Below, piece after piece: positions 17,570 to 57,126 of a stretch of 64,000 nucleotides of DNA. Source of the DNA: Paraflavitalea pollutisoli (lineage in GTDB: Bacteria > Bacteroidota > Bacteroidia > Chitinophagales > Chitinophagaceae); NCBI RefSeq assembly GCF_029360705.1, contig NZ_JARKMX010000003.1, positions 124,001 to 188,000 of the forward strand, in the 5' to 3' direction. The notes beneath the pieces are model-generated. The model made no database searches. It was not told where the DNA came from and was given only the letters and a program-made list of their open reading frames with translations. Both the position numbers and the translations under genes were made by a program. How positions within the stretch are numbered: position 1 is the first letter of the stretch; each line of letters starts with the position of its first letter.

Positions 17570-17643
17570 GGATCGGTAGTTCAGTCGGTTAGAATGCCGC
17601 CCTGTCACGGCGGAGGTCGCGGGTTCGAGTCCCGTCCGGTCCG
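17570..17643 (+). tRNA. tRNA-Asp (anticodon GTC)
   Basis: The 74-base gene folds as a full cloverleaf. The acceptor arms GGATCGG and CCGGTCC pair, with one T-G pair. The anticodon stem CCGCC/GGCGG encloses the loop CTGTCAC with GTC at 17604-17606. The T arm contains GGTTCGAGTCC. The discriminator is G and no CCA is encoded. A tyrosine recombinase follows about 200 bases downstream, so this tRNA is the likely island insertion site. Confidence 0.96.
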
Positions 17644-17647
17644 CTCT

Positions 17648-17847: not shown

Positions 17848-19215
17848 ATGTCTCAAGTGATTTATCCAACATGCGATAAGAAGCGCATCAGAAAAGTTGA
17901 TGGAACGAGCAAGGTCTATCTTCAGTACAATTACAGCTCGGATATTCGACCATTGCTCGATACCAGAATTTCAATTCCACCCCAGCACTGGGATCGCGCC
18001 ACAAGGAGAATAACCAACAAGCTACCGACGGACTTTGGTAGTTATAAAGAATTAAACAAGGAGGTCAAAAGGCAAGAAGAGCTTGCTCTTGATCTGGTAA
18101 GGCTGGGTACTCGGATGAAAGTTTCGGACATAGTTGCTTTCGTAAGGCAATTTTATTCCCCCCAAATTGACATTACAGAGCTTTCAACAAAGAAGGAGTT
18201 GTTTGAACGTCTTGCCAAAAGTCCAGGAGAGCGAAGTAACAACGATTTATTCTTTCAGTTGGAAGAATATATAAAAGCAAAAAAGGGCCGTGTATCCGAC
18301 AAAACAATAAATGTTTTTGAGCAAGTTGGCCAGCACCTCAGGGCCTTTGAAAAACATTCGGGTTCTAAGGTTTGCTTTGATGGTTTAGACTTTAACTTTT
18401 ACGACGCTTATACAAGGTTCTTAACCTTCGAATATGTACAAGAGCGTAGGAAAACACCTGTTATTGGCTTGAAGCAAAATACCATTGCAAAAACCATCAA
18501 GCAACTCCGAATATTCGTGAAGGACAGAATTAAGCGCAAAATTATTGCGCCTATTGATCTGTCAGACTTCAAATCTCAGGAAGAAAATACAGACGCTATC
18601 TACCTGAATTTCGATGAGATCCGAAGGTTGTATAACCTGGATTTGATGAACTCTCCAGTCTTGGCTCAATACAGGAGGATTTTCATAGTCGCTTGCTTGA
18701 CTGGGTTACGCTTTTCAGATTTTTCAACAATCACTCCCGAGAATATTGTTGGCGAAAAGTTCATCCTAAAGCGTCAAGAAAAATCGGATAGCCCGGTAAT
18801 GATTCCCCTACGGCAGGAAGCTAGGCAAATGCTGTTGGAGTATTTTGATAACAAGGATGTTGTTCATATCACAAACCCTGACCTAAATGCCAACGTAAAA
18901 GTGCTGGGTAGGATGGCAGGAATAACGGAGTCGATCACGTTTAGCTACAAAAAGGGGGCACAAACTATAAAAGACATCAGAGCGAAATGCGATTGGATTT
19001 CTACCCACACAGCGCGTCGCTCCTTTTGTACCAACGAATTCCTTGCAGGTACACCGGTTAAACTTATAATGAAGATCAGTGGCCATAAAAAAGAAAAGGA
19101 CTTTTATAAATACATACGCATCACTGAAAAAGAGGCTGCATTAATTGTTGAGCGTATTTGGATGGCAAGAGATGGAATGCAGCCGCTAACCCCTGCTTTA
19201 ATTGTTCAAAAATAA
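17848..19215 (+). CDS. Tyrosine recombinase (island integrase)
   Basis: A 455-residue site-specific recombinase. The N-terminal part (to about 110) is the arm-binding type found in Bacteroidota conjugative elements, residues about 135-235 form the SAM-like core-binding domain, and the catalytic domain has TGLRFSD (Arg288), HTARRSF (His387, Arg390), SGHKK (His413) and the tyrosine in FYKYIRI (most likely Tyr422). It would cut and rejoin DNA at an att site. Its position just downstream of tRNA-Asp and pointing away from it supports integration at the tRNA 3' end. The catalytic residues all seem intact, so excision may still be possible. Confidence 0.93.
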   Translation: MSQVIYPTCDKKRIRKVDGTSKVYLQYNYSSDIRPLLDTRISIPPQHWDRATRRITNKLPTDFGSYKELNKEVKRQEELALDLVRLGTRMKVSDIVAFVRQFYSPQIDITELSTKKELFERLAKSPGERSNNDLFFQLEEYIKAKKGRVSDKTINVFEQVGQHLRAFEKHSGSKVCFDGLDFNFYDAYTRFLTFEYVQERRKTPVIGLKQNTIAKTIKQLRIFVKDRIKRKIIAPIDLSDFKSQEENTDAIYLNFDEIRRLYNLDLMNSPVLAQYRRIFIVACLTGLRFSDFSTITPENIVGEKFILKRQEKSDSPVMIPLRQEARQMLLEYFDNKDVVHITNPDLNANVKVLGRMAGITESITFSYKKGAQTIKDIRAKCDWISTHTARRSFCTNEFLAGTPVKLIMKISGHKKEKDFYKYIRITEKEAALIVERIWMARDGMQPLTPALIVQK

Positions 19216-31364: not shown

Positions 31365-31385
31365 GGCATATCCGTTTGTATAGCT

Positions 31386-35648: not shown

Positions 35649-35731
35649 GCCCAATGTTGATTCGTTACAGGATGCAGGTACGGAATGCATTATTCTTTAG
35701 CACCAGGCTGTGGCAGTAATCAATAGTTGCT

Positions 35732-43031: not shown

Positions 43032-45011
43032 CTAGCTTTTAGAGCTCAGATGCATATGATCTGGATTATTTAGTACTTGCTCCAACACAGCGTCAACAAT
43101 GTCTTGGGTTTGTTGCTTTATTGCGAGGAATTGATTGTACATTACCTCCTTGTTGGCCTTGTTGACAACCGGTAATGGTTTGTATTTTTGCTTTTCCCTC
43201 TCAATGGCCTTATAGTCGTTAATTACCCTGCAGTGAAACGCTTTATATTTTATTGGCTGATTTGGATTGTCGGATACAACACCAACGAACTCCCCGCTGG
43301 ACAAACTTGCGATGGTACTGGGAGGCACGGATTGATCCAGTTGCTTCGATCTTGATATGGAGGTGTCACCGCTATTGATTGAAATGCTTTCTCGGTCCTG
43401 GAAGGTCTTGGCAAATTTCTCACTCAGTAGTCTCGCTGTTTCTCCTGACACCTGACCGCTGATGATATTTCCTGTGATGTTGAAAATGGTATCTGCTTCG
43501 TCTTTACAATAGATCATTTTAAGCTGACTGAGGTCTTGCAATCCTAAAATTGTAGTTATGTTGTTGGATCTACCGGTTTGGATTGTGGATAACACGCTAA
43601 TTGCTCTGGCGCTGGCGAACTCATCCAATACCTGAGCACAAGGATATTTTCCCGGCTGATTAATCATTTTGTTGAGTCGATCAATGTATAACGAAATGAT
43701 CGGAGCCAGCGCTTCCTGGTACTGAGGATTATTGCCGAGGCAGAAAATGATCGGCCGTTTGGGGTCGTTGATGGCTAGTGTAAAATCATCACCGGAAAGT
43801 ACCCAGTATATTTCCGGAGAGGCAATGCGACCCAGTGCAATTTTTACGGTAGCCATCTGACTGTTAAGGGTTTCCAATTCGTCGTCTGCAAATGCCTGGG
43901 CAAAAGGGTTAATCAGGGTTTTTATTTCAGGTTCAGTTTGTAGCACGGTGAATAATTTGTCGTAGGGTTGATGTATCAGTTCTATACAATGTGGCAGGCT
44001 GCAATAGGCGCCGTCTTCATACCGGCGAAGAAAGCCTATGACGGCGGCAAAAACATTGATTGCAGACTCGGGGAAGAACTCTCCTTGCCGGGTTGCCCAC
44101 GTCCTGTTCATGCTAAGAAGTAGCGATTTGGCAGAATCAATGGCACTCGTCAGGTTGGGTAGGGTAGATTGATGAATTGGGTTACATTGATGGCTTAGTT
44201 CCGGATTCGTGAAGTTGACTGTTCGAAACTCAGTATTTGCGGGATATTCCCTTTGGTGTTTTTGGTAATGATTATAGGTCAGGGTAGACAGTTCCGGAAA
44301 TTTTTGGTCGAATACAAATAGAACTTGCTTTTTGGCAACCAGTTGCCGGATGAGGTTCTCGATGACGTAAAAACTTTTGCCACTACCCGGAGAGCCCAGC
44401 ACGAGCACCGACCTTCGGGCGTTTAAGAAATTAATCCAAGACCGCCTTTGTTGCCCTTTATAGGTGTAGACTGCGGGTAGATTTAGGCTATATTCTTCAG
44501 TTAAGAGCCTTTCTTCCTGGGGAAACCCTTCTTCGGCAAAAACCTGTTGCCGAAGACGCTGTTTGATGGCCCTGGAAATCGTACTGCCGCCGGTGATAAC
44601 AAGTAGTAGCCCGATAATTGAAATGCTCATGTAACAAAGGGCAAGCGTTGCGGGAGCTAACGGCGGCCACCAATACAGGAAGCCGGAGCAATAATATGCG
44701 ATCAAACCAGCCACCAGGTAGGCAATGCCTGCGCTGTAGCTGGATTTTTCGTCTTTGCGGCCTTTCACGCCCATCAGCGATAGCAACAAACAAAATAGCG
44801 CGAGGGTCTTCGAATAGTTGAAGCTCTTAAGTAATCCGGTGTCGGCTATTCTGGCCAGGAATTGATCACCAATGGGCGCAATAAAGCCCCATAATTCAAA
44901 AGCGCTGTAGCAGTAGTAGTAAAAATGAATAAACAGGATTGCCAGGGCAATCCACCGGGTAAGATCTGTTACTTTCTTCAACCCCTGTTCGTTCTCTCCA
45001 GTTCGTAACAT
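43032..45011 (-). CDS. mobC: Conjugative coupling protein, VirD4/TraD type (MobC of Bacteroidota elements)
   Basis: A 659-residue inner-membrane ATPase that links the relaxosome to a secretion channel. The N terminus has two to four transmembrane helices, with the YYYCYSAFELWGF stretch (residues about 31-43) of the YWFCY-type N-terminal domain. Walker A is GSPGSGKS at 206-213; Walker B is in CAQVLDEFASA, followed by TGRSNNITTILGLQDLSQL. It is transcribed after the relaxase with an 11-base gap, so mobA-mobB-mobC form an operon. Full length and intact motifs suggest function. No channel genes are seen in this window. Confidence 0.92.
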   Translation of the reverse strand: MLRTGENEQGLKKVTDLTRWIALAILFIHFYYYCYSAFELWGFIAPIGDQFLARIADTGLLKSFNYSKTLALFCLLLSLMGVKGRKDEKSSYSAGIAYLVAGLIAYYCSGFLYWWPPLAPATLALCYMSISIIGLLLVITGGSTISRAIKQRLRQQVFAEEGFPQEERLLTEEYSLNLPAVYTYKGQQRRSWINFLNARRSVLVLGSPGSGKSFYVIENLIRQLVAKKQVLFVFDQKFPELSTLTYNHYQKHQREYPANTEFRTVNFTNPELSHQCNPIHQSTLPNLTSAIDSAKSLLLSMNRTWATRQGEFFPESAINVFAAVIGFLRRYEDGAYCSLPHCIELIHQPYDKLFTVLQTEPEIKTLINPFAQAFADDELETLNSQMATVKIALGRIASPEIYWVLSGDDFTLAINDPKRPIIFCLGNNPQYQEALAPIISLYIDRLNKMINQPGKYPCAQVLDEFASARAISVLSTIQTGRSNNITTILGLQDLSQLKMIYCKDEADTIFNITGNIISGQVSGETARLLSEKFAKTFQDRESISINSGDTSISRSKQLDQSVPPSTIASLSSGEFVGVVSDNPNQPIKYKAFHCRVINDYKAIEREKQKYKPLPVVNKANKEVMYNQFLAIKQQTQDIVDAVLEQVLNNPDHMHLSSKS

Positions 45012-45022
45012 ATAATGTGCTT

Positions 45023-46336
45023 TTAATATCTTAGTTTTTTCCTTCTCCTGCGCTTACTCGGATCTTGGCTTAATTCGGCGGCCATGCCACCTTGCTGTGG
45101 TTTGTAAGGTGGCGTATGTTGAGGCATTTGACTTTCCTGTGACTTGCCGTTTTGTTGAAAGTGATCCTGTTCAGGTTTACTTATCTTTGATGGCTCCCTG
45201 GTTGTCTGCTTTTCTGTGACAGGGGTCTGATAGGAAGCCTGATCGATCAATTTTAAGCGCTGCTGAACTCTGTTGGCACTATATTCTTTGCCCAGATCGC
45301 TACCATTGAACACACATTTTGTTTTGTGATCAATGTATGTTAAACCATAGATAGTTCCTTGATCATTTTGGCGGATCACCATTTGGATATTGTCTTTTCG
45401 AAGTGCTTCTTCCAATTGGGCCATGGATGATTCCGACTTTTTAAAGAAGTGGAGATCTACAGCGTTTTTTATGCGGCGTTTATGTCCTTCTCTTTGTAGC
45501 TCTTTTTCAGCAAAGAATTCCTGGAGTTTAACCATGGTGGGCTTATTATAGAAGTCACTTGCCGGTATAGGTTTGCCGACCTGTTTTCCGTTTTCTCCCA
45601 GGATTTGGTAATACAGGCCGTTCCGTTGATGCGTACGAGAGTCTTTTCCTCCCTGGTGCGCTATGACGTTGTAGTTTCTTAACACCGCATTTAGCTCCGC
45701 CAGTGAGGTGTATTTATAATTTGGAAGGACATAGTCAAGTACATTGGTAATTGCTCTTTTGGTCCCGATCTCGGGTGACTTGCCGTATACAACTTTCTTG
45801 ACATTGATCGGCGCTAGTTCGAATTGTTGGTGTCGCTGTTTGTCATCAGCACGTACCAGGTTGAAAACTTTCTCAATATTCTTACGAGCTTTTTCAGATT
45901 TGTCACGCCCAATATTGTGGAGCTTAATTCGCTTGCCATTAGCCTGGATATTGGTGGTGACGATGTGGATATGCGGATGGCTGGCATCATTATGTTTATA
46001 CACTAAATATGGTTGACCACCGAAGCCGAGTTGGTCCATATAGCTGATAGCGATTTCCTGCAGTTTGTTTGTGGACAGTCCCTGTTCCGATGGATCAAAG
46101 TTTAGCGAGATGTGAATCGCATTAACTTTTGTCCTTTCATTGAGGCTGGTTAGTTTTTCGAAGGACTTTAGTTTATCGGCAAATCGAAGACCGTCGATAT
46201 CTTTGGCAAAACCATTGGCATGTATTAAGGTGGCTGCCTTAATACTCTTTTGTTGATCGATTGTCAACGTGGTTTTGTTCTCGTTATACTGCAGAATATT
46301 GCGGATGGACCGCCCCTGATTTACTACTGCAACCAT
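45023..46336 (-). CDS. mobB: Relaxase/mobilization nuclease (MobB type)
   Basis: A 437-residue MOBP-like relaxase. It would nick one strand at oriT through a tyrosine and pilot the DNA to the recipient. The three-histidine metal motif is SHPHIHIVTTNI with His120, His122 and His124; VNAIHISLNF near residue 71 and the tyrosine in RNILQYNENK (Tyr17) fit the other conserved motifs, the latter being the probable nicking residue. The C-terminal 70 residues are Gln/Pro/Lys-rich and disordered. It overlaps mobA by 13 bases, showing tight coupling. Confidence 0.92.
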   Translation of the reverse strand: MVAVVNQGRSIRNILQYNENKTTLTIDQQKSIKAATLIHANGFAKDIDGLRFADKLKSFEKLTSLNERTKVNAIHISLNFDPSEQGLSTNKLQEIAISYMDQLGFGGQPYLVYKHNDASHPHIHIVTTNIQANGKRIKLHNIGRDKSEKARKNIEKVFNLVRADDKQRHQQFELAPINVKKVVYGKSPEIGTKRAITNVLDYVLPNYKYTSLAELNAVLRNYNVIAHQGGKDSRTHQRNGLYYQILGENGKQVGKPIPASDFYNKPTMVKLQEFFAEKELQREGHKRRIKNAVDLHFFKKSESSMAQLEEALRKDNIQMVIRQNDQGTIYGLTYIDHKTKCVFNGSDLGKEYSANRVQQRLKLIDQASYQTPVTEKQTTREPSKISKPEQDHFQQNGKSQESQMPQHTPPYKPQQGGMAAELSQDPSKRRRRKKLRY

Positions 46337-46713
46337 TTGTCCGAAAGTTTGGCAATGAGGGTTTTTGTTCCAGCGATTTTGTCCGACAAAATCCGAACGA
46401 TTATTTCATGCTGTGGACCCCAAGATTGCAGGTCCTGAATATTCTGAATCAAGTGCAGTTTTCGGACGACCTGGTTGTAGTTATTGGCGATGGCATTCAG
46501 GTCATTTTTGAGCGCTATTAAATGTGGCATCATTTCATCGAGAGACTGGTTACGCTGGTAGATGGTGACAGGTTTTTGCAACAACATTTTGCGTGCGTAT
46601 TGACTGATGTTTTTGCAAGTTGTTTTGTTGCACCTATTGTGCAAGGTTTCATACTCCAATGCTGTAAAACGCACGTGTAACCGCTTTGGTCTTGTTACTT
46701 TTGCTGCTTTCAT
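46324..46713 (-). CDS. mobA: Mobilization accessory protein (MobA type, relaxosome component)
   Basis: A 129-residue basic protein from the ATG at 46713 (a GTG two codons upstream is also possible). It has a ribbon-helix-helix-like start (KRLHVRFTALEYETLHNRC) and the KNISQYARKMLL helix typical of MobC/MobA accessory proteins, then a helical segment that ends LSDKWLQ. Such proteins bind oriT and help the relaxase open DNA. The candidate oriT lies just upstream of its start, as expected. Confidence 0.85.
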   Translation of the reverse strand: MKAAKVTRPKRLHVRFTALEYETLHNRCNKTTCKNISQYARKMLLQKPVTIYQRNQSLDEMMPHLIALKNDLNAIANNYNQVVRKLHLIQNIQDLQSWGPQHEIIVRILSDKIAGTKTLIAKLSDKWLQ

Positions 46714-46770
46714 ACTCACAAATCATTTTCACGTTAATAATCAATTACTTATTGCCTGTTTTTAAAACCG

Positions 46771-46852
46771 CCCCCGACTTCGGAGGGGTGGCGGCCAGAT
46801 TCCGATGTCCGACATCGGTACATCTGGCAGGGCGAGGCGCTCCAGTCGCCCT
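46771..46852. other. Candidate oriT: cluster of nested inverted repeats
   Basis: Between mobA and the primase gene three hairpins lie in a row. At 46795-46827 an outer pair ccagat/atctgg surrounds ccgatgt/acatcgg (3-base loop). At 46829-46852 agggcga pairs with tcgccct. A smaller GC hairpin with ccga/tcgg arms and flanking ccccc/gggg lies at 46771-46788. Location upstream of mobA, GC content above neighbours and absence of a coding frame all suit an origin of transfer. The nick site cannot be named. Confidence 0.6.
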
Positions 46853-46955
46853 GAAAACCTTTGATAACCATTCTGTCCATCCCCTCTTTGGCCCTGCTCA
46901 GCGAAACCAGCGACAATTGCCAGGCAGAAAAAAAGTACTGTGGCCGATCAAAGGA

Positions 46956-47834
46956 TCATGGCTTTTGTTGCATTTTTTGAGACTTTCCCAGGTGTTGACA
47001 AAAAGCATTGAGATCATTGTAATGCCGGTATAATCGGCGTTCGTCAATAAACCTTTTTGGATCGAGTAACAAGGCTGCTGTGGTGAGCTTGTTTCCCGTA
47101 TTGTCGTTGTCCAGAAATAAACGTACTGTATCATGCTGCCGCATGGTGGGTAATTGCTGGTCAAAGAAAGAGGCCGAGTTGAGGATTAAGTAGTTTGTCA
47201 GTCCATGGTTTTGCGGATTGGTGATTGTCTTATAGGAAAGGAAATCAAAGAAGCCCTCGAATACTGCCAGGCTGCTGGCTTCCTGATTAATGAAGGTGCT
47301 TGCCTTGGGGGAGCTGGAAGCCTTTACGTACTGGTTGCGCAGTTCGTAACCACCCTGATCATTGCGAAAGCCAAGTGCATAGTAGTTTTTGCCATGCAAA
47401 CTGTAATTAACCTCCCTAAGGTGCTCAGCGGCGATTTTTGGAGGGATCCTGCGGTCGCGGAGATATTTGATCAGGGGAAAGGATTCAATAGGTTTTACCA
47501 GGTTAATCTTGATCGTATCCTCGGGGGAGGTTGTGACTGACTTTGCCGGTTGCTGAACCGGGCTATGATGATATCCTGGTGCGATGAGGCGCTGTAAGAA
47601 ATCTGGTAGGGTACATTTAAAATAGGCCACTCCGAAGTCCACCAGGTTACCGCCTTTCCCTTCGCTAAAATCAAACCAACGGTTCATAGATCGATTGATT
47701 TTGAAGGAGGGGGTTTTTTCGTCACGAAGCGGCGAGTAATACCAGTAATTTTTGCCGCTTATTCTTTGGGGCTTATAACCAAGCGAGGAGAGGTAATCGA
47801 CCATGTCCAGGTCTTTTGCTTGCCGGATATTCAT
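46956..47834 (-). CDS. Toprim-domain DNA primase of a mobile element
   Basis: A 292-residue DnaG-like protein. The N-terminal 95 residues resemble the primase zinc-ribbon domain (YYSPLRDEKTPSFKINRSMNRWFDFSEGKGGNLVDF) but lack the metal-binding cysteines and histidine. The Toprim domain has the acidic residue in LAVFEGFFDFLSY and the DxD in TVRLFLDNDNTGNK. It probably makes primers for replication of transferred single-stranded DNA. It sits directly next to the putative oriT on the side away from the relaxase. Confidence 0.88.
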   Translation of the reverse strand: MNIRQAKDLDMVDYLSSLGYKPQRISGKNYWYYSPLRDEKTPSFKINRSMNRWFDFSEGKGGNLVDFGVAYFKCTLPDFLQRLIAPGYHHSPVQQPAKSVTTSPEDTIKINLVKPIESFPLIKYLRDRRIPPKIAAEHLREVNYSLHGKNYYALGFRNDQGGYELRNQYVKASSSPKASTFINQEASSLAVFEGFFDFLSYKTITNPQNHGLTNYLILNSASFFDQQLPTMRQHDTVRLFLDNDNTGNKLTTAALLLDPKRFIDERRLYRHYNDLNAFCQHLGKSQKMQQKP

Positions 47835-48166
47835 AACACACTGTTTTCTTTATTCACATATCGTATCTGCTACAAAGCTATGGCTGTCTGACAGGGAGAT
47901 AAATACCAGTGCGAATTAGGATACGGGTGGAGGATACTCCCGGGGATAACAGCCTAATTGCCCGAAAGGTGGCAGTTTTAACTTCCTTCAACGGAATGGG
48001 TTAGCAGGAAATCAAGCGCTGGAGTAATAGTTTGACTATGGAGCAGGAGTACTTAAAATCGTTTGCAATAGCGGGTACTAGATAATTATGTATAGAATAA
48101 AGTGGCCGTATGTTGTAGTAATTTTTCACTTTTTATCGGTATATAGAATGAGTACACTCCTTATCT
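47835..48166. other. Divergent intergenic region between primase and FecR-like gene
   Basis: About 330 bases that must hold both promoters. I see no strong consensus element and no reading frame. Confidence 0.4.
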
Positions 48167-49171
48167 ATGAAATATTCTTCGGATCAAGAAATTAAGGAAA
48201 TACAATCTGATGATTCACCGGCTTCGTCAACGTTGGGACTGGGGTTCTCAGGTCGATGGATTTGGCTTGCCATATTTTCGTTGATTATCATTGGTGTGAT
48301 TGGCTACAGATGCCTGTTTCAAGGAAAAGCAGATATGGGGGGCGGGATTTCGAAGGAAATCGTGGAGATCAAAATGCTTCCTGCCAGGGGAGATACAGCC
48401 GGAGTGATAGAGTTGTCAAACGGCATTCATTTCCCTTTTGCTACATACGATACAGGGTTAATAGCTACACAGAACGGAATAACATTATACAGGCGAGCAA
48501 ACGGGCAACTAGTTTACGGCAAAAGCAGAGATTCTGCTGGGGAACTAAGATTAACGAATAAGGTAATTGCATTGCCGAAAAGGCCCTTGGCAGTCACGCT
48601 TCCTGACAGCAGCAATGTGCAACTAGATCCCCTAGCTGAATTGGCAATGGATATTTCCCAACTTGAGTGTGAAAGGTCTGTTTCTGTTACCGGACAGGCT
48701 TATTTCTCTGTACCTAGTAAAAGGGGAGGCCTTTTTAATGTTTATTCAAATGGTGCCAAAATTGAAACGACAGGGTCTAAGTTTATCGTGAAAAGCTACG
48801 AAGGTGGCCCAACGACAATTAGCCTGGAGAAAGGATTACTTACTGTGACAAAGGGAAGTAAGTTTACGAGACTGAAAGTAGGGGACGTTGTGAATGTGCA
48901 TCCTGGCGAATGGTTTGAATGGAAATCATCCAAGCTACGAAGTTTTGTAGGTGTTAGAGATAATGTTTTCTATTTCGAGGATGACAATCTGGAAGCAATA
49001 AAGAATGAGATTGAACAATGGTACGCTGTCAGGTTAAAATTGTCTAAATACGGAGATAACTCAGCCCGCTATCATTTTGGCCCGGTATCCCGCAATCTTC
49101 CACTTGGGAAGGTATTGGGGAAGTTGAACAAGTTAACGGGAGACCGTTTCAGCGTAGTGGAGTTTCCATGA
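48167..49171 (+). CDS. FecR-family protein (anti-sigma/signal transducer), orphan
   Basis: A 334-residue single-pass membrane protein. A helix at residues about 31-51 (IWLAIFSLIIIGVIGYRCLF) follows a short 30-residue cytoplasmic tail. The periplasmic FecR domain has LPDSSNVQLDPLAELAM, SVSVTGQAYFSV, FNVYSNGAKIETTGSKFIVKSY and VVNVHPGEW, and a C-terminal DUF4974-like part has NLEAIKNEIEQWYAVRLKL. FecR proteins relay signals from a TonB-dependent transporter to an ECF sigma factor. Neither partner is adjacent here, and the cytoplasmic tail is shorter than in usual anti-sigma members. Only a sigma-like remnant lies 1.6 kb away. Confidence 0.85.
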   Translation: MKYSSDQEIKEIQSDDSPASSTLGLGFSGRWIWLAIFSLIIIGVIGYRCLFQGKADMGGGISKEIVEIKMLPARGDTAGVIELSNGIHFPFATYDTGLIATQNGITLYRRANGQLVYGKSRDSAGELRLTNKVIALPKRPLAVTLPDSSNVQLDPLAELAMDISQLECERSVSVTGQAYFSVPSKRGGLFNVYSNGAKIETTGSKFIVKSYEGGPTTISLEKGLLTVTKGSKFTRLKVGDVVNVHPGEWFEWKSSKLRSFVGVRDNVFYFEDDNLEAIKNEIEQWYAVRLKLSKYGDNSARYHFGPVSRNLPLGKVLGKLNKLTGDRFSVVEFP

Positions 49172-49293
49172 TCCGTATAGCGATGGCTTAACGTTGGTGA
49201 TAGTTCATAAGGAGAACATGTTTCTTCTAGGACTGAAGCAGGTAGGTTGTTTATGTTTTGAGTAGAATATCGAGTGAGTGATCAAAAAAGGGG

Positions 49294-49764
49294 TTATAAC
49301 AACCCCTCGTCGGCAAATGAATAGTATTCTGTATCTGAAATGATGAGGTGGTCGAGAAAGTTTATGTCCAGCAGTTCTCCAGCTTCTTTTAATTTTCTGG
49401 TTATTTTTTGGTCTGACATACTAGGCGTCAGCCCTCCTGATGGATGGTTGTGGCAAAGAATAATTTGACAAGCGCAAGTCTTTAATGCTATTCCATAAAT
49501 TATCCGAAGGTCTACGACGGTGGCGGAGATGCCTCCCGTTCCTAAATGAACGATTCCTAGGACTTTGCGCGATGCGTTAAGGAGTAAGATTTTGATTTCC
49601 TCAATAAATTGAATCCTGTCCATATTCCAATGGCCTAGAAAGATTTTGTAGCTGTCCCTGGAGGTTGTAAGTGTAGGCCGCTTTGAAGCCGGAATTTTAT
49701 TACGGTAGGTAAATTCAATTTCCGCAACATTTTGCAAGTTGATATCAACTACTGTGTGTTCCAT
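49294..49764 (-). CDS. RadC-family JAB/MPN-domain protein
   Basis: A 156-residue protein from the ATG at 49764; an open frame before it lacks support. The JAMM metal motif is complete: LCHNHPSGGLTPSMSDQK with His105, His107 and Asp118, and a conserved Glu in FIEEIKILLLN. The N-terminal helix-hairpin-helix of chromosomal RadC is missing, as usual in mobile-element versions. Its role in elements is not settled; carriage near oriT suggests a function in the recipient, possibly counter-defence (inference). Confidence 0.88.
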   Translation of the reverse strand: MEHTVVDINLQNVAEIEFTYRNKIPASKRPTLTTSRDSYKIFLGHWNMDRIQFIEEIKILLLNASRKVLGIVHLGTGGISATVVDLRIIYGIALKTCACQIILCHNHPSGGLTPSMSDQKITRKLKEAGELLDINFLDHLIISDTEYYSFADEGLL

Positions 49765-50167
49765 AATAAATAGTTTTAGCGTTAAAGAATTATGGAACAG
49801 TGCACCGGATGATCGCAAACAAGTCCAAACCAGCAGGCGGAATAAAAGACGGCTATGCGCGACGGATAGGTGTTTATGCCGAACTGTTTGGACGCTCTGC
49901 CGCGATCAGCCGAACTTTCGGAATAATTCGGAGAACGAAAAACTACTGCCTTCCTCATATCTGTTAAAGGTTTTAAAGAGTGTTTAGAATGATTTCATAT
50001 TTGAATGAGTCAAAAAGATTCTTATGGAACATTGGATTTCGGGACAATGAGTTGAGATTCGCCTATTTTACCTGTGCGGATAAGGATACTGGTGAATTAT
50101 CCATTCGTGTATTTAGTGAGATAGTTTTGTATTGATTAATGAATGGGTTTCACAAAAAAAGAAGTGT
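49765..50167. other. Intergenic region between RadC and the next plus-strand genes
   Basis: About 400 bases with divergent promoters. I find no reliable gene. Frames here are short and have no family features. Confidence 0.4.
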
Positions 50168-50464
50168 ATGCTTAGTCAAAAGGAATTTGCAGTGTTGTAT
50201 GAAACGGTCCTCGCATCGCCAGGTATGACCGATTCGGTGAAGCTGGTATTACACCTTCCGAGAAAGCAAGTATTGATTCTCTCCAAGATTATTGAAGTGG
50301 GAATTGCTGCCAAAGGAGATGGAGAAAAAGGCGGCTTACTCGCTTCTGTTGAAGGGCAATTGTTCGATGAATTGGCCGGGGTTAAAGACGAGCTGTTGCA
50401 AAAGGCCGGCTTAAAAGAAATGAGTGAACGGATCAATTCACTGATTTCGAAACAACCTTTATGA
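50168..50464 (+). CDS. Hypothetical protein
   Basis: From the ATG at 50168 the protein has 98 residues (MLSQKEFAVLYETVLASPGMTDSVKLVLHLPRKQVLIL). It is helical and soluble, with no known domain. The next gene overlaps it by four bases, ATGA, so the two are translationally coupled. The pair stands alone on the plus strand among minus-strand genes. Function unknown. Confidence 0.6.
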   Translation: MLSQKEFAVLYETVLASPGMTDSVKLVLHLPRKQVLILSKIIEVGIAAKGDGEKGGLLASVEGQLFDELAGVKDELLQKAGLKEMSERINSLISKQPL

Positions 50465-50796
50465 GGGGAACAGTATTATCCTGGAAACAGGCGATCACTC
50501 AGGGATATGAACCCCGGCAGTATGAATACCTGCCGGGGCCACTTCCCAATGACATATTCGATGCTATCCTTGATTTCAAAATTTGGGCAAAGGTGCCTGG
50601 AATTAACGGGTATTTTACCATTTCAGATACCGGAAAAAAAATTCAGTTGTCTGTTTACCTTTCAGCATCTCGCACGTACTACATTGGCAAACATTCCATC
50701 GACTTTTACCGGTGTCCGGTTGGTTGTCTTTATCAGCTGCAGATAGGGCGTACGGGAAAAGGCAAAACGGTGTTGCTAGACCTGATTGCTATTTAG
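50461..50796 (+). CDS. Hypothetical protein
   Basis: A 111-residue protein that starts inside the last codons of the previous gene. It has a strand-rich core (GYFTISDTGKKIQLSVYLSASRTYYIGKHSIDFYRCPVGCLYQLQIGRTGKGKTVLLDLIAI). The GRTGKGKT stretch resembles a P-loop by chance, but the protein is too small to be an NTPase and the stretch is at the C terminus. Its stop codon shares four bases with that of the convergent sigma-like remnant. Confidence 0.6.
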   Translation: MRGTVLSWKQAITQGYEPRQYEYLPGPLPNDIFDAILDFKIWAKVPGINGYFTISDTGKKIQLSVYLSASRTYYIGKHSIDFYRCPVGCLYQLQIGRTGKGKTVLLDLIAI

Positions 50797-51125
50797 TAGG
50801 GTGGCCTGGTCATTCTAATAAGCGAAAGCAATTGGTCATGGTAGATCTTTTTTTCGGTAGTGGAACCTAGGTGTTCCTCAAGGATCTTAAATAGCCAGAA
50901 GAAGAGATCATTGGGCGGATCATTAGTATAAGAAGAAATTTTACTTTCTGCAATTTCAAATGTCTTAAGCATTGTCTGAAATGACACAGGAAAGCTACGG
51001 GTGATCCCCATAAGAATGAAGACTAAGGGGAAAGTATAGCAACTCCGTAAGTGCTCAATTGCCAAACTGTCCCCGCTTTGCAGTGCTTTGATAAATTCGA
51101 GATGATAGTTCGGAGTCTGATCGAA
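50793..51125 (-). pseudogene. Truncated sigma-70-like (region 2) remnant
   Basis: On the minus strand a frame begins after an in-frame TAA at 51126-51128 and has no ATG or GTG ahead of its conserved part. It reads FIKALQSGDSLAIEHLRSCY, then MLKTFEIAESKISSYTND and PNDLFFWLFKI. The pattern follows region 2 of ECF sigma factors (LxxGDxxAxxxLxxxY, then DTFxKIWxxIxxY and LFxWLxxI). Regions 3 and 4, including the -35-binding domain, are absent. It might be translated from the TTG at 51065, which would delete the first helix. A decayed sigma factor is the simplest reading. Confidence 0.45.
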
Positions 51126-51148
51126 TTACTTATCCAAGGGTAGGGATT

Positions 51149-51622
51149 TTATAAGTTAGAAATTGGTGCAGAGACAGGATATGCGGTTTGGACCCAATTG
51201 TTGTTGTCGACTACAATTTTGATGAGTGATGAATCCTTACCGTTTTCGTCCCGTCCTATGATTCTACCTGCGTCCAGGAATCGATTATAGCTGCACACTT
51301 TAACGATTGGCTCGGCAGGCAATTGGTGTGCCTGGAAGATTAGTTCGGCAATCTCAGAAGGAGGAATTGTAAATTTTAAGGTTTGTAGCGAAGGCTTAAA
51401 AGGGGCGTAGTGCCGCCTCAGGATAACCTCCAGGCAATATGCAGTAAAGTGATAATCGGAAGGTGATGTCCACGGACCTGCTGCACGGGGTAACTGATAC
51501 ATGAGGTTGTGGGAGAGGGTGTTGAGGCTATTACGCATTTTTGCGAAGCACATAATAGCGTCGATGAATTTCTTTTCATCGAAATAGCCGGTAAATGCCG
51601 GTGGAGTGAAAGCGTTGTTCAT
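51149..51622 (-). CDS. Hypothetical protein of the mobile-element small-gene cluster
   Basis: A 157-residue soluble protein starting MNNAFTPPAFTGYFDEKKFIDAIMCFAKMRNSLN. No known domain is recognised. The C-terminal half has strand-like segments (AEPIVKVCSYNRFLDAGRIIGRDENGKDSSLIKIVVDNNNWV). It has the same orientation as the genes from 51915 to 54343 but is separated by 290 bases and a plus-strand terminator. Confidence 0.6.
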   Translation of the reverse strand: MNNAFTPPAFTGYFDEKKFIDAIMCFAKMRNSLNTLSHNLMYQLPRAAGPWTSPSDYHFTAYCLEVILRRHYAPFKPSLQTLKFTIPPSEIAELIFQAHQLPAEPIVKVCSYNRFLDAGRIIGRDENGKDSSLIKIVVDNNNWVQTAYPVSAPISNL

Positions 51623-51884
51623 GTTTGCAAAGGAATTTATTTGTTAATAAATCCAGCGTGAACAACAAAAAGACAGCATGAATGGGCAACTATTAGGCTG
51701 CTACCCAAAAGATAAAAAGCCGGATTTCTGTTGTCAAGGTCTGGCTTTCTCACGCCCAGATCTGGCAACGAAATCGAACCAAATATACGAAAATTAGGAA
51801 CGTTAAAAGAGACTCTTTTTGGTGCTGGTGTTAAATGTTGGCTGGGAGCGTTTGCTTAAGGCATTAATAACCATCTGCCAAACG

Positions 51885-51917
51885 AAGCTGCTGCCCGCCA
51901 GGGCAGCAGCTTTTTTA
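51885..51917 (+). terminator. Strong plus-strand terminator with no upstream plus-strand gene
   Basis: A perfect 10-bp stem (gctgctgccc with gggcagcagc) around gcca, followed by six T residues, points to the right. The neighbouring genes on both sides are minus-strand. It therefore either ends an unannotated RNA that starts between about 51640 and 51880 or blocks antisense transcription into the next gene. Confidence 0.75.
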
Positions 51918-52292
51918 TAAAAAATCAAGCGGCAGCCGAAAGGCTGCCTGCTTGACGTCAGATTTAGAATAGTGTAAGCGCGGGCTTAATGCACCATCGG
52001 GGGAGTTTTCCTGTGAACAGACGCCAACCGATAATTGTCCTTTATTCAGGATGCCCACGTACTGATCGAAAGCATGTAGTGGGAATACGGTATGAACTAC
52101 CGGGATGCGAGCAGTAGGCTCCCGTAGTGGCAGGTTCAGCAAATAGCTTATCAATTCTGCGTCCTCTCGAATTGATAAATAGGCACCTTCCGTTTTGAGC
52201 AGGATAATTGAATTGGGGTAATCAGCGGCCAAGCGCTGGCGAAGGTCTTGGATAAACTCGTTGATATTGTCTTGTGTGTTATTCATAGTCAT
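51915..52292 (-). CDS. Small protein resembling the MutS N-terminal mismatch-recognition domain
   Basis: A 125-residue protein (start at 52292; an ATG at 52286 is equally possible). YPNSIILLKTEGAYLSIREDAELISYLLNLPL followed by VVHTVFPLHAFDQYVGILNKGQLSVGVC tracks MutS domain I (YPdtIlLfrmGDFYEmFxeDA ... PxxGfPxHaldxYlxkLvxaGxxVaic). The critical Phe-x-Glu that wedges into mismatches is replaced (GAYLSI), so it would not recognise mismatches in the usual way. It stands alone without clamp or ATPase domains. Function unknown; perhaps a DNA-binding or interference protein of the element. Confidence 0.65.
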   Translation of the reverse strand: MTMNNTQDNINEFIQDLRQRLAADYPNSIILLKTEGAYLSIREDAELISYLLNLPLREPTARIPVVHTVFPLHAFDQYVGILNKGQLSVGVCSQENSPDGALSPRLHYSKSDVKQAAFRLPLDFL

Positions 52293-52325
52293 ATGTTGTT
52301 TGTGTGTGGTGAAAGTGACTACGTT

Positions 52326-52637
52326 TTAAGGATTGGTAAGAAGGGAGTAGGCGGCAATGAGCCTTTTACTAATCTCCTCCGCTTCTGAAATCCGGTGCTG
52401 ATTCTTGTCAGGATGCCACTCGTTAATAAGGATTCGGAAAGCCTTTTTTATTGCGGCAATGGCGGCTGTTGGGGGAACGCCCAAAATTTCGTAAGGCGAT
52501 TTCTCCGCATTGATCAAAACGCGGCGGGCTTCATCTTCCGTCATCCGCTCATTGAAGGCATTGCGCCATTTGTCGGGATCGCCAAAACCGCCCGTTGTGT
52601 CATAGGTTTTGTAGCCGTCTAAAAATCCTTTTGCCAT
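52326..52637 (-). CDS. Small J-domain (DnaJ-like) protein
   Basis: A 103-residue protein with a C-terminal J domain: SPYEILGVPPTAAIAAIKKAFRILINEWHPDKNQHRISEAEEISKRLIAAYSLLTNP. The HPD motif required to stimulate Hsp70 is present (near residue 75). No Gly/Phe or zinc region follows. The N-terminal 45 residues contain DPDKWRNAFNERMTEDEARRVL. It should recruit host DnaK to an element protein. It is in a tight minus-strand array with the SWIM gene 5 bases upstream. Confidence 0.85.
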   Translation of the reverse strand: MAKGFLDGYKTYDTTGGFGDPDKWRNAFNERMTEDEARRVLINAEKSPYEILGVPPTAAIAAIKKAFRILINEWHPDKNQHRISEAEEISKRLIAAYSLLTNP

Positions 52638-52642
52638 AGTAT

Positions 52643-52885
52643 TTAAGTTTTAATGATGTTTACTTCGCAGGGTTGTTCATTGCCGGGTAGCCCAAGTGCT
52701 TCGAGGTGCTTACAGTGGCGGTGTCTTTTCCAGCCGGGGCAGTTACAGGCCCAATGCCTTCTTCTTTTATTTTGAGATATAATGTAAAGGCGGTCTGAAC
52801 TAGCGCTTTCAATCTGGAACCTGAATTGCCACTGGTCATTATCCGGCAGCAGGACGCTGCCGGATATCCTGAGTTGTAATTGCAT
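52643..52885 (-). CDS. Small SWIM-type zinc-finger protein
   Basis: From the ATG at 52885 (MQLQLRISGSVLLPDNDQWQFRFQIES) the protein has 80 residues. The C-terminal half holds WACNCPGWKRHRHCKHLEALGLP, a CxCx(8)CxH SWIM zinc finger, known for DNA or protein binding. The open frame upstream of this ATG overlaps the next gene and I do not use it. It lies between two small genes of the same strand with short gaps. Confidence 0.7.
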   Translation of the reverse strand: MQLQLRISGSVLLPDNDQWQFRFQIESASSDRLYIISQNKRRRHWACNCPGWKRHRHCKHLEALGLPGNEQPCEVNIIKT

Positions 52886-52895
52886 AACGGTGGTT

Positions 52896-53276
52896 TTAAT
52901 CGATGTAAAAAAGTAGTGTAGCGGCTTTCCTGAAAGGGTTTTGATCTGGTAGTGTTTTCGCGTAGCAGGCGATACAATGAGAAGTGTAGAGTGCGAGAAA
53001 ACCGTCAAAAAGCTGATCGGCGAATAGGGTAGCTTTTGTAAGTCTTACGCCATACCTGTCAATACTGGTGCGTGTTTCCTTGGCCATATTGATCCAATCA
53101 CGAGCGGAAAGAATGGGGTTAGGATTGTTGTCAAAAGATGTTTGCACCGTGTCAGGATCGGCGGTAATTTGGTCGCAATAGTCTTTCATGGCCTCTAAGA
53201 AAGCGGGAAGTTCTTCCGGCAGCAGGACGGCAAGGAGTTTTGCACGCTGCACATTGTTCATATTTTTCAGTGACAT
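52896..53276 (-). CDS. Hypothetical protein of the mobile-element small-gene cluster
   Basis: From the ATG at 53276 the protein has 126 residues (MSLKNMNNVQRAKLLAVLLPEELPAFLEAMKDYCDQI). It is largely helical and acidic, with no known motif. An open extension upstream is not used because it runs antisense-like through a spacer and into the J-domain gene. Ten bases separate it from the SWIM gene, so they are probably co-translated. I do not recognise the family. Confidence 0.65.
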   Translation of the reverse strand: MSLKNMNNVQRAKLLAVLLPEELPAFLEAMKDYCDQITADPDTVQTSFDNNPNPILSARDWINMAKETRTSIDRYGVRLTKATLFADQLFDGFLALYTSHCIACYAKTLPDQNPFRKAATLLFYID

Positions 53277-53325
53277 AATGTGATTTTTTGATGTTGATAA
53301 ATGGAGGGAGAAGGAGTAACCATTG

Positions 53326-53802
53326 TTACTCCTGATCGATGATTTTGCGTCCTTGGGATGCGACGGACTGGGAACCGTATTTCGCGCGGATCTGTTCAAG
53401 GGTGCCGCCTTTACCGTGGCTTCTGAAAGCCTCATTTCGGTAGTACCAAGCCTTTTTTTGACTGGCGAAGAAATACCCGGCAGCTTTGATGGCATCTTTT
53501 ACTGCGCGGGTATCACCGGTTACCCAAATCCAGTTGCCAACTATTTCGATGATGATACCGGGTAGGTGAATAATCTGTTCTATCTTCTGGCGGTACTCTT
53601 CGGACATCTTCAGTTCCTGATCAACTTCGGCATCTGTCATGCCTTCATTTTTGGAGATAAAGGCGCAGGCAAAAGCGTACTCTTTGTTAATCTCCTGCAT
53701 GGTGGCCGTATCGCCTCCGCGATCCGGATGATGCTCTAATGCGAGTTGTTTGTATAGCTTCTTAACGTCTTCTAACGTGTTACATCCTGAAAAGTATTTC
53801 AT
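53326..53802 (-). CDS. J-domain protein with C-terminal extension
   Basis: A 158-residue protein. The N-terminal 60 residues are a J domain (TLEDVKKLYKQLALEHHPDRGGDTATMQEINKEYAFA) with the HPD motif. A region of about 90 residues follows with a conserved look (IIIEIVGNWIWVTGDTRAVKDAIKAAGYFFASQKKAWYYRNE), common in Bacteroidota element and phage J-like proteins. It is the second J-domain protein within 1.5 kb. It likely delivers DnaK to a replication or transfer complex, by inference. Confidence 0.85.
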   Translation of the reverse strand: MKYFSGCNTLEDVKKLYKQLALEHHPDRGGDTATMQEINKEYAFACAFISKNEGMTDAEVDQELKMSEEYRQKIEQIIHLPGIIIEIVGNWIWVTGDTRAVKDAIKAAGYFFASQKKAWYYRNEAFRSHGKGGTLEQIRAKYGSQSVASQGRKIIDQE

Positions 53803-53845
53803 AACAAGGCGCCTCTACCAACCCGGGCGCGTGGGTAGTTTTTGA

Positions 53846-54052
53846 TCATGAATGAAAAAGGGTGAGTTTGCCCGCTGCTGTCTCTTGCACGGGTTTGCTG
53901 GTGCTGTGCTTGCGCAATAGGTAGTAGATGGTAACGTCTGCATTGCTGACAATAGCCCATGCAGCGGCAAGCGCTTTCGAACGGTTGCTTTGCCGGGTGC
54001 GTTGAATCTCCCATGACAGGTACATGAGGCGCGATAGCTGGTTAGCTTGCAT
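53846..54052 (-). CDS. Small hypothetical protein
   Basis: A 68-residue protein, MQANQLSRLMYLSWEIQRTRQSNRSKALAAAWAIVSNADVTIYYLLRKHS. I choose this frame over an overlapping one because it has a natural amphipathic pattern and fits the gene spacing of the cluster. Small proteins of this look accompany J-domain genes in other Bacteroidota elements, as far as I recall, but no function is known. Confidence 0.6.
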   Translation of the reverse strand: MQANQLSRLMYLSWEIQRTRQSNRSKALAAAWAIVSNADVTIYYLLRKHSTSKPVQETAAGKLTLFHS

Positions 54053-54103
54053 ACTGGTAAATTTTGAGGTGAAGAAAAAAGGGTACGGATGCGGGAGTTG
54101 TTT

Positions 54104-54343
54104 CTACTGTTTCACCAGTTCGTTGAGTTTTGCCTTTACCGCTTTGGCTGTCTCTCCGCGCCATGTGCGGGCGTTGGCAAGGAAATAGTTTACTACACTT
54201 CGACCGGTGTCAGCGCCGTAGTTGTCATTTACGCTTTGGCGGTCTCCCATGGCATCGAGGTATGGGAGGGCGCCGTAGTACACGGGACTACGGTCTTTGT
54301 GGATAATGGTGGCGATTTCGTGGAGCTTGTTAGGTACTTGCAT
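54104..54343 (-). CDS. Small hypothetical protein of the mobile-element cluster
   Basis: From the ATG at 54343 the protein has 79 residues (MQVPNKLHEIATIIHKDRSPVYYGALPYLDAMGDRQSV). It then reads YGADTGRSVVNYFLANARTWRGETAKAVKAKLNELVKQ. The composition suggests a compact helical protein. It is the most upstream gene of the minus-strand array that runs down to 51915, so the array's promoter should lie between 54344 and about 54450. Confidence 0.65.
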   Translation of the reverse strand: MQVPNKLHEIATIIHKDRSPVYYGALPYLDAMGDRQSVNDNYGADTGRSVVNYFLANARTWRGETAKAVKAKLNELVKQ

Positions 54344-54810
54344 AACCAAAAAGTTTTAGGTGAATGAAAGGCGGCATGTGCGCCGCGTTCTTTCTTTTTG
54401 GCACGCAAAGCGGCTAATTGCAGGACGAAGGCCGAAGAACAGCCTACCAGCAAAAAATACTACCGCCCTGGCGGTGGAGATTTTTTGCCAGGGATGTTCG
54501 CAGGCTCGGAGTAATGCAATACTGTATAGGGAAAATGAACCTGGTTGCAGGATAGGAAAGTGCACAAGAGTGCGACGCAACGGACGCTGGATTGATGAAC
54601 TAGTGCTGGCTACATACCGTTTCCCTTCCCAGGATATTTACCGTTTAATAAATAGTAGTAAAGTCGAGGTTTTGGGAAATAATTCTGGCCTACTGATTGC
54701 AGCAAAATCGTCATAGAAGGGGAGAATGCCAGATGGTCTTCCATTCACATAAAAGTATCATCTGGCTGAGAACCACGGAAACTTGTGATAACCAGGCATC
54801 TGGATTCTGA
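54344..54810. other. Intergenic region with GC-rich and T-run sequence
   Basis: About 470 bases between divergent genes. Around 54460-54495 a short GC hairpin (accgc/gcggt) is followed a few bases later by six T residues, a weak terminator-like element. Open frames on both strands through this GC-rich stretch lack family features and I do not accept them. Confidence 0.4.
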
Positions 54811-55485
54811 ATGGACACGGATAATGAAAATAATTTTTTGACGAGCCGTAAAGGGGGGTGTAACTTAGGTTCCACAGTACCACTCTACCAACAACACTAC
54901 ATGAACCTTATAGCGTGTTTTGTAATCTCTACACAGCAGGAACAGCTTTTGGACATTCTGCAACAGTATTCGGGCTTTGAGACGATTGTTAATGATGCCC
55001 CCATACAAGCAGCAGTGTGTGAAGTACTGGCCGATATTGATGCTGATCCGACCTTATACGTAGTAAATGGTGGGAAGGATCGAATCCTAATTGAGGTGAA
55101 TAGCTACAAAAAGCTACATGACCTTGCCAGACAAGTCTCTTCCGATTTACAAACGGTCTTTTTTCAAGTCTGTTACAATGATTTAGTCGGGTATGCTTAC
55201 TTCCTGTTATATGACCAGGGCGAGCTGGTCCGGGAGATAGAATCCCGGGGCAGTAAAAAGGACCCTGATGTCAACTACGGATTTCCGCTGACTTTTGAAG
55301 AAGATGGCGAGGTTACATTTTTCGACCTGGACATGATTGCCGAGTTCTGTGAACATCTGGGGGTAGATGTTGGCAACCTGTATGAAGATCCTACCTGCAC
55401 AGTATTACAAGGGGCCACCAGCCGGCCTATGGTCCGACTGGATCAAGATAAGCAGTTGAGCCTTTTATTTTACCCACTTGGTTGA
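54811..55485 (+). CDS. Hypothetical protein
   Basis: A 224-residue acidic soluble protein; an ATG at 54901 (MNLIACFVISTQQEQLLDILQQYSGF) gives 194 residues and is the more natural beginning. It contains no known motif. Segments such as TLYVVNGGKDRILIEVNSYKKLHDLARQVSSDLQTVFFQVCYNDLVGYAYFLLYDQGELVREIESRG suggest an alternating alpha/beta fold. It lies upstream of an AraC regulator on the same strand with a 240-base gap. Function unknown. Confidence 0.6.
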   Translation: MDTDNENNFLTSRKGGCNLGSTVPLYQQHYMNLIACFVISTQQEQLLDILQQYSGFETIVNDAPIQAAVCEVLADIDADPTLYVVNGGKDRILIEVNSYKKLHDLARQVSSDLQTVFFQVCYNDLVGYAYFLLYDQGELVREIESRGSKKDPDVNYGFPLTFEEDGEVTFFDLDMIAEFCEHLGVDVGNLYEDPTCTVLQGATSRPMVRLDQDKQLSLLFYPLG

Positions 55486-55729
55486 TGTTTATTGCCTGTC
55501 ATAGGCTTATGTATCCCTCTACTTTGCATATAAAGTGTTAAATCCGAGGCTTCTCTGGTCTCTGAGATTAAATTATATTTAATCAGGCATGTATAACCGA
55601 TTAACAATCCAACCAATCGATACTAAAACCCGTACAATACCACGAAGTGGGAGTATTGAAATGAGGTAAGAGTTGTTTAATTTCGGAACAGGGACTGCTG
55701 TCTGCAGTAAATCTAACCTATGAAGGCTT

Positions 55730-56797: not shown

Positions 56798-57126
56798 GCT
56801 AAGAGGTGCGAAAGCGCTCTAAAAAGAATGTGAAATTTCCTAATAAGCAAGTCATAGGACTGACCTGCGACCAGGATAGCCTTTCGGTATTTACTTTTCA
56901 AGCTAATAATAAACCCTTTTCCATTGCTGGTATCATGGGCAAACTCATTTTCGGGTACGGTAGCCCGATTCCCCGGACGAACTGTAACACGAAGCGTAAA
57001 CCCGGCAGCTTGGGTGAGGTGACGCTGGAGTTTTGAGTACATAGTAACTAATTGATCGTAGCTCTCATAGTCTTCTGTCGCAAAGAAGTGCTGATTTCCC
57101 CAAAAAGCATCGATATAATACGTCAT
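56794..57126 (-). CDS. Hypothetical protein
   Basis: A 110-residue protein, MTYYIDAFWGNQHFFATEDYESYDQLVTMYSKLQRHLTQAAGFTLRVTVRP. The first half looks like a compact alpha/beta domain; the last 40 residues are basic and hydrophobic and may be less constrained. No family is recognised. It shares a TTAG overlap of stop codons with the AraC gene. Confidence 0.5.
   Translation of the reverse strand: MTYYIDAFWGNQHFFATEDYESYDQLVTMYSKLQRHLTQAAGFTLRVTVRPGNRATVPENEFAHDTSNGKGFIISLKSKYRKAILVAGQSYDLLIRKFHILFRALSHLLA

Follow-up and report, generated by a model that had tools for sequence, protein, structure and literature searches.

A conserved gene array with two J-domain proteins beside the probable transfer origin of an integrative conjugative element from Paraflavitalea pollutisoli

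Among the closest described systems are the leading regions of conjugative plasmids, in which ssb genes are frequent according to the relevant passages of Samuel et al. 2024 (PMC11541004). Phage RB43 encodes the J-domain protein Rki, which acts early on the DnaK of the host (PMC3486835), and according to a paper on an IncX2 plasmid it is unknown what the DnaJ-domain proteins of plasmids do (PMC4207749). Here we describe a gene array from Paraflavitalea pollutisoli in comparison with these systems. The window, i.e. the whole stretch of 64,000 nucleotides that was analysed, comprises C11:124001-188000 (C11 being contig NZ_JARKMX010000003.1) of a genome of 8.76 Mb. The array is part of a 67,238-bp (67.2-kb) integrative conjugative element (ICE) in this Chitinophagaceae genome. 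Because of its position, its strand and the gene content of its relatives, it very probably represents the leading region of the ICE.

Conservation of the array in related elements

The conserved core of the array is formed by the genes u79-u68-J2-u126-SWIM-J1, which are co-oriented toward the probable origin of transfer (oriT; Table 1). Neighbourhoods were counted in the best 80 of 316 J2 relatives in GTDB contigs, using profiles built from the window genes. Downstream of J2 and on the same strand we found u126 (16 of 16), SWIM (15 of 15 matches, 14 loci), J1 (16 of 17 matches) and the primase gene (11 of 11). The accessory gene mobA takes this place in all 12 loci where it was detected and the relaxase gene in 12 of 15, while u68 lies upstream of J2 in 10 of 10. 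Hence, the neighbourhood is conserved across elements, a check that the initial annotation had proposed. The 65 other J2 loci contain no relaxase of the window's type within stretches of up to 10 kb on each side and therefore test nothing about the placement of J2 relative to the relaxase. Wherever SWIM was matched (16 distinct loci), J1 adjoins it; L129 and L177 contain J1 without SWIM. In 11 of the 80 loci an ssb gene precedes J2 on the same strand, the centres of the two genes being at most 1 kb apart. On the opposite strand and downstream of J2, u110 was found in 12 of 13 cases; it has no known domain and is among the most constant neighbours of the primase gene in these ICEs.

The same genome contains a second, diverged ICE of this family (C15:3392779-3441519; loci L062, L186 and L187) with its own type IV secretion system (T4SS) ATPase and putative leading array. 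A third copy is an ICE on contig C17 of G003, a genome of the same genus. Most of the array is present in the same order in both sister ICEs, with protein identities of 40-82%. DNA similarity to them, for which matches of at least 150 bases were counted, starts at the coupling protein gene and stops at about C11:200.7 kb. FecR and RadC occur in neither sister ICE, u157 and a doubtful frame of 90 residues only in that of C15, and u79 only in that of G003. RadC recurs beside the primase gene or J2 in other loci. The view of a single array that includes FecR therefore stands for the core genes, which recur in the two sister ICEs and many loci, but not for FecR, which has no match in either sister stretch and was rejected as a member of the system. 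FecR is located between the primase gene and RadC on the opposite strand.

Pairwise tests of ten genes gave ratios of nonsynonymous to synonymous differences (pN/pS) of 0.14-0.38, with many synonymous sites saturated. Thus, these genes are real and under purifying selection. Ten genes lie on the - strand (11 with the doubtful frame) and three, FecR, u110 and u111, on the + strand. Consequently, the initial statement that most genes share one strand holds; the short gaps described along with it are confined to 51915-54343, where neighbours are spaced by 5-51 bases, whereas the gaps between - strand genes further left measure 292, 1,330 and 1,459 bases. If the polarity proposed below is right, 10 of the 13 clear genes would have the entering strand as their template.

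For the gene content of the relatives, 119 hand-chosen open reading frames (118 from the relatives' leading sides and the MutS_I frame of the window) were surveyed with Pfam. Among the best 25 of 40 families were DUF6908 (13), SSB (9), RadC (7), DUF3560 (6), ParB_N (6), DUF932 (4), DnaJ (3) and MutS_I (2); single matches include type I restriction domains.

The assignment of the host element as an ICE follows from several features found together. The integrase gene lies next to tRNA-Asp at 17.6-19.2 kb of the window, and the last 18 bases of this tRNA gene form a flanking direct repeat with a second exact copy at C11:208847-208864, beyond the window. The relaxase and coupling protein genes are accompanied by a TraG-type T4SS ATPase gene at C11:190183-192615, 2.2 kb right of the window; a second TraG belongs to the ICE on C15.

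Table 1. Features of the ICE in the window. Positions are those of the window; the starts of SWIM, u126 and u79 were corrected from homologues.
Feature	Position	Strand	Remarks
ICE end repeat, 18 bp	17627..17644 (C11:141627-141644)	+	3' end of tRNA-Asp
Tyrosine integrase	17848..19215	+	Arm-DNA-bind_5, Phage_int_SAM_5, Phage_integrase
Coupling protein	43032..45011	-	YWFCY / T4SS-DNA_transf
Relaxase	45023..46336	-	PF03432
MobA-type accessory protein (mobA)	46324..46719	-	MobC_2 / NikA-like
Probable oriT	46760..46855	+	hairpins whose stem sequence varies; nic-like arm GTACATCTGGC (+ strand, ~46818-46828)
Primase-like protein	46956..47834	-	Zn_ribbon_DnaG (CHC2 zinc ribbon) and Toprim_2
FecR	48167..49171	+	FecR domain; outside conserved array
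RadC (JAB)	49294..49818	-	Pfam E 6e-35
u110	50132..50464	+	beside primase, opposite strand, in many ICEs
u111	50461..50796	+	paired with u110 in some ICEs
u157	51149..51622	-	shared with the sister ICE on C15, absent from the one in G003
Stand-alone MutS domain-I-like protein	51915..52292	-	MutS_I E 6e-6; without Phe-X-Glu
J1, short J-domain protein with HPD	52326..52637	-	DnaJ E 2e-14, above Pfam cut-off
SWIM-type zinc finger protein, 80 aa	52643..52885	-	adjoins J1
u126	52896..53276	-	recurrent downstream of J2
J2, J domain and C-terminal domain	53326..53802	-	HPD; family common on plasmids
u68	53846..54052	-	directly upstream of J2
u79	54104..54343	-	PHROG 13953; first gene of the array; in ICE of G003, not in C15 stretches
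Conserved non-coding leader with hairpins	54344..54586	-	may act as single-strand promoter or as leader RNA with regulatory role

Within the ICE, three very long frames at 28896-40162 probably represent cargo. One of them has a weak match to the CHU_C type IX secretion signal and another one is visibly repetitive.

Probable transfer origin, polarity and leader

The hairpin element between the primase gene and mobA is, judging from its sequence, the probable oriT. A near-constant loop motif with an upstream stem-loop was found between these genes in all 22 distinct loci with mobA, the loop motif itself having served as the search handle. By this comparison the probable oriT separates the array from the relaxase gene, as the initial annotation had proposed. 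The loop motif reads TCCGAAGTC in 13 loci, TCGGAACTC in five, TCCAAAGTC in two and TCCGGAGTC in two; in the TCGGAACTC variant a C-G pair is swapped to G-C. The sequence of the upstream stem varies as well (CCGATGT/ACATCGG in the window; CGGTTGT/ACAACCG, GCGTTGT/ACAACGC and CTACTGT/ACAGTAG in other loci). In 20 of the 22 loci this first stem runs without interruption over at least 6 bp, and in 15 it surpasses 95% of dinucleotide-shuffled sequences. RNAalifold returned only three pairs for the alignment because the mobA-side arms misalign; therefore, stems were counted sequence by sequence.

In the alignment of 21 rows many columns of the outer arm next to the primase gene reach at least 90% identity, compared with no such column in the arm next to mobA, a contrast that rests partly on misplacement of some mobA-side arms; an unaligned listing of the loci has the same tendency toward a better-kept primase-side arm. 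On the + strand this arm reads GTACATCTGGC or GACATCTTGC and resembles the MOBP nic consensus YATCYTG|Y. With the nic-like arm on the + strand, this strand would be the transferred one and the array would lie on the leading side, so that transfer would presumably proceed with the array side first. Thus, the leading-region position claimed for this array is supported by its side of oriT, its strand and the ssb genes of relatives, whereas the direction of transfer is what we infer from the nic-like arm.

The non-coding leader upstream of u79 is a second conserved element. The stretch 54338-54586 is 81% identical to its C15 copy, compared with 68-77% for the matching array and mob segments, and holds a 17-base run, TTGCGTCGCACTCTTGT, that is invariant in five aligned copies. 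Its folding beats shuffles on both strands (z -3.16 for + strand DNA, -3.02 for - strand RNA), and the leader of L102 folds alike (z -3.92). These properties make it a candidate for either a single-strand (Frpo/ssi) promoter or a regulatory RNA leader, which fit equally. An Rfam search across 46000-57000 gave no match at E <=1. The leader motif GTTGCGTCGCACTCTTGT (54564-54582) also occurs in seven IMG/VR viral stretches (L194-L200) and in L145.

J2, its distribution and the other array proteins

J2 is a protein of 158 residues. The His-Pro-Asp (HPD) motif of its J domain is invariant in an alignment of 59 sequences and present in 83 of 85 J2 frames; for J1 this applies to 17 of 19 frames. The Pfam DnaJ score of J2 is just below the cut-off (25.9 versus 27.8 bits, E 1e-5). 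Its family profile, however, matches solved J domains from E 4e-6, among them those of polyomavirus T antigens as well as of cellular DnaJ proteins; matches to histones are weak and were taken as chance. The AlphaFold2 model (mean predicted local distance difference test, pLDDT, 84; predicted template modelling score, pTM, 0.73) comprises, besides the helices of the J domain, a linker helix and a small domain of beta-beta-alpha-beta-beta topology in which W, G and K positions are conserved. Modelled alone, this C-terminal domain reached a pLDDT of 82 and a pTM of 0.68. Beyond the J domain, the whole model has no clear structural match; the best viral one is a Fusobacterium phage chaperone (E 6e-9). 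For the C-terminal domain no sequence match at E <=5 was obtained in the PDB, the best Foldseek hit had E 0.6, and VIA-align gave a best Z of 3.4 with weak rows for the XPB N-terminal part (Z 2.0-2.3). A new fold does not follow from these results. For this domain, two of 42 members match the DUF5710 profile (best E 0.003), and DUF5710 exceeds its own cut-off in one of 119 relative genomes.

J2 matches 2,658 of 72,556 PLSDB plasmids, from Escherichia, Klebsiella, Enterococcus, Acinetobacter and other hosts, and 2,205 of the 2,658 are typed conjugative; these counts are not independent since PLSDB records are redundant, many being near-identical. In a control with ParA, 2,418 of 5,000 records among the matches listed were conjugative. 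J1, SWIM and the u79 frame have no match in PLSDB plasmids. Fourteen phage records carry J2 homologues.

Nineteen J2 plasmids, hand-chosen for diversity, were inspected, and J2 precedes the relaxase gene on the same strand in 11 of the 14 with a recognised relaxase. Where the relaxase is annotated by name, nine of ten plasmids have this arrangement: C. freundii P3 (across the record start), pIsolateG_D, IncX3, IncX4, IncX8, pAb-G7-2, p1BJAB07104, pSRM1.1 and pAS566-3. In four more we took DUF5712, LPD7 or MobC annotations to denote the relaxase; two of these fit, an IncI2 plasmid and a Capnocytophaga plasmid, the latter classed as non-mobilizable by MOB-suite and with ssb after J2. On pBDT201-3 only a coupling protein gene was seen, co-oriented with J2 and separated from it by an antirestriction gene and ardA. 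The four plasmids without a visible relaxase, from Deinococcus, Sporomusa, Parabacteroides (partial J match only) and Apirhabdus, are all typed non-mobilizable. On seven enterobacterial plasmids (L084, L085, L086, L087, L096, L097 and L202) J2 is followed by three genes that are similar by eye, for proteins of ~182, ~85 and ~78 residues, the last one helix-turn-helix (HTH)-like. This set adjoins different relaxase types and resembles, by eye, neither SWIM nor u126.

All domains first named for the array were recovered: primase, FecR, RadC, MutS_I and two J domains, of which that of J2 is recognised by its HPD motif, and the SWIM zinc finger by motif. Its Pfam score is below the cut-off (12.4 versus 19.6 bits; E 0.39 for the long and 0.12 for the corrected frame), and the motif CxC-x8-CxH is present in 15 of 17 homologous frames. 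The MutS_I-like protein is similar to MutS domain I over ~80 residues. Phe-X-Glu is found in none of the three stand-alone copies (EGAYL compared with GDFYE in two MutS sequences); since the motif is lost, a function as mismatch sensor is unlikely. Among 147 relatives stand-alone copies are limited to G003 and to both ICEs of the P. pollutisoli genome. The remaining MutS_I matches are frames of at least 323 residues, nearly all MutS-sized. A PADLOC scan returned only weak matches, the best one between the primase and a DRT-associated DnaG-like model (E 2e-4), and known defence proteins were therefore dismissed as an explanation for the array genes.

Proposed role and comparison with described systems

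The most specific signal of the array is a J-domain family expected from its sequence to recruit DnaK, rather than counter-defence. We propose a leading-region establishment module in which J2 and J1 recruit the DnaK of the recipient, a reading for which we see an even chance. The relaxase would nick the + strand at oriT near 46.8 kb, and this strand would enter the recipient with its 5' end first. The genes for the primase, RadC, the MutS_I-like protein, J1, SWIM, u126, J2, u68 and u79 would thus arrive within the first 7.5 kb. Their transcription would use the entering strand as template, run in the direction of oriT and probably start from the structured leader. J2 and J1 would recruit DnaK via their HPD motifs, and the C-terminal domain of J2 together with the SWIM protein might select the target. 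As the likeliest target we see the nucleoprotein that enters the cell, with relaxase, SSB-coated strand and primase; its remodelling would allow it to be refolded, copied and integrated.

Several observations weigh against this proposal. The array in the window lacks ssb. Scans of its proteins with Pfam and NCBIfam, which are not dedicated anti-defence libraries, named no anti-restriction, anti-CRISPR or anti-SOS family. In three of the 15 relaxase loci the placement is broken (upstream of J2 in L152 and L169, opposite strand in L140). Among the plasmids, E. faecalis pQZ076-1 has J2 on the other side of the relaxase, and in pWE_H_1 and p2492-6 the relaxase lies on the other strand. The occurrence of J2 in phages means that its role need not be specific to conjugation. 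At the probable oriT the first stem does not beat shuffles in seven of 22 loci, and the second one, around the loop motif, beats them in five and fails in 17. The leaders of L106 and L069, two of four loci folded, fold weakly (z -1.74 and -1.66). The redundancy of PLSDB, the choice of plasmids by hand and the misplaced arms in the oriT alignment, as mentioned above, count on the same side.

The closeness and shared orientation of J2 and mobA/relaxase would also agree with a role in the donor, where J2 and J1 would help DnaK to unfold the relaxosome or to put it together ahead of its secretion by the T4SS; relaxases cross the T4SS unfolded, and the proximity to mobA would reflect co-regulation, not early entry. 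We consider this unlikely, since in relatives the stretch also harbours genes for proteins outside the relaxosome (ssb, RadC and ParB-type genes), J2 retains its position whether the adjoining relaxase is of the MOBP or the MOBF type, and phage records contain J2 as well. The latter would be in line with a replication co-chaperone. DnaJ and DnaK act on initiation complexes of lambda and some plasmid initiators, and J2 could activate or disassemble such complexes of the element or phage without special tie to entry. A replication initiator gene lies within a few kb of J2 on several plasmids, and the ICE array includes a primase. In the ICEs, however, J2 sits with oriT and mob genes, no Rep gene was found in a scan limited to the array proteins rather than the whole ICE, and the majority of J2 plasmids is typed conjugative. 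This role is therefore improbable.

Counter-defence, the role initially put forward, would have the small proteins block restriction, CRISPR or SOS, with J2 directing DnaK at a complex of the defence machinery. Anti-defence genes have their hotspots in leading regions according to passages of PMC11541004, E. coli DnaK inhibits Cas1-Cas2 according to passages of PMC10359635, and on two plasmids J2 lies at most 4 kb from annotated antirestriction/ArdA genes. The passages on DnaK and Cas1, however, name no element-encoded J protein and suggest that element clients of DnaK free Cas1-Cas2 (PMC10359635). As Pfam and NCBIfam named no known anti-defence family in the array and PADLOC matches were weak, the claim did not find support and we regard such a role as doubtful. 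That unrelated small genes merely gathered beside the mob genes as loose cargo is very improbable. FecR, RadC, u157 and u79 do differ among the three ICE copies, but J2-u126-SWIM-J1 and u68 keep their order and strand over many loci, which, together with the purifying selection, already weakens this explanation.

An extension of the proposed establishment module, which we offer as speculation, would be a class of J-domain adaptors that occurs across phyla, is encoded by the elements and enters first, redirecting recipient DnaK in the minutes during which the conjugated DNA is single-stranded. J2 would be the constant recruiter with lineage-specific partners, i.e. SWIM, J1 and u126 in Bacteroidota and the three-gene set with the HTH-like protein in enterobacterial plasmids. 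One candidate target may be Cas1-Cas2. The J2 family is present on thousands of plasmid records of unrelated bacteria, mostly in similar position on those inspected. Its leading-region placement, with ssb or antirestriction genes near some J2 genes, leads to the hypothesis that host chaperones take part in plasmid and ICE establishment. In addition, a comparative layout of oriT and leading region is now at hand for a group of Bacteroidota ICEs.

In the literature searched, no paper joins a leading region with DnaJ, or with both a J domain and a conjugative plasmid. The main text of PMC11541004 contains no 'DnaJ', 'J domain' or 'chaperone'; its supplements may still list the J2 family. Compared with MutS domain I, the window protein is alike over the ~80 residues mentioned above and differs in standing alone and having lost Phe-X-Glu. 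Of the IncX plasmids inspected, IncX3, IncX4 and IncX8 carry J2 homologues; the DnaJ-domain protein of PMC4207749 is from IncX2 and was compared by description, and the passages on it include no analysis of position, family or partners. Rki, likened by description from passages of PMC3486835, is like J2 and J1 a J-domain protein from DNA entering cells; its early action on host DnaK was shown by experiment, whereas that of J2 is predicted. The array shares with the leading regions and anti-defence islands described in passages of Samuel et al. 2024 (PMC11541004) the side of oriT opposite the relaxase, genes mainly templated by the presumed entering strand, ssb in relatives and a structured non-coding leader. 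It differs from them in belonging to a Bacteroidota ICE, in having no named anti-defence gene and in its richness in J-domain and zinc-finger proteins.

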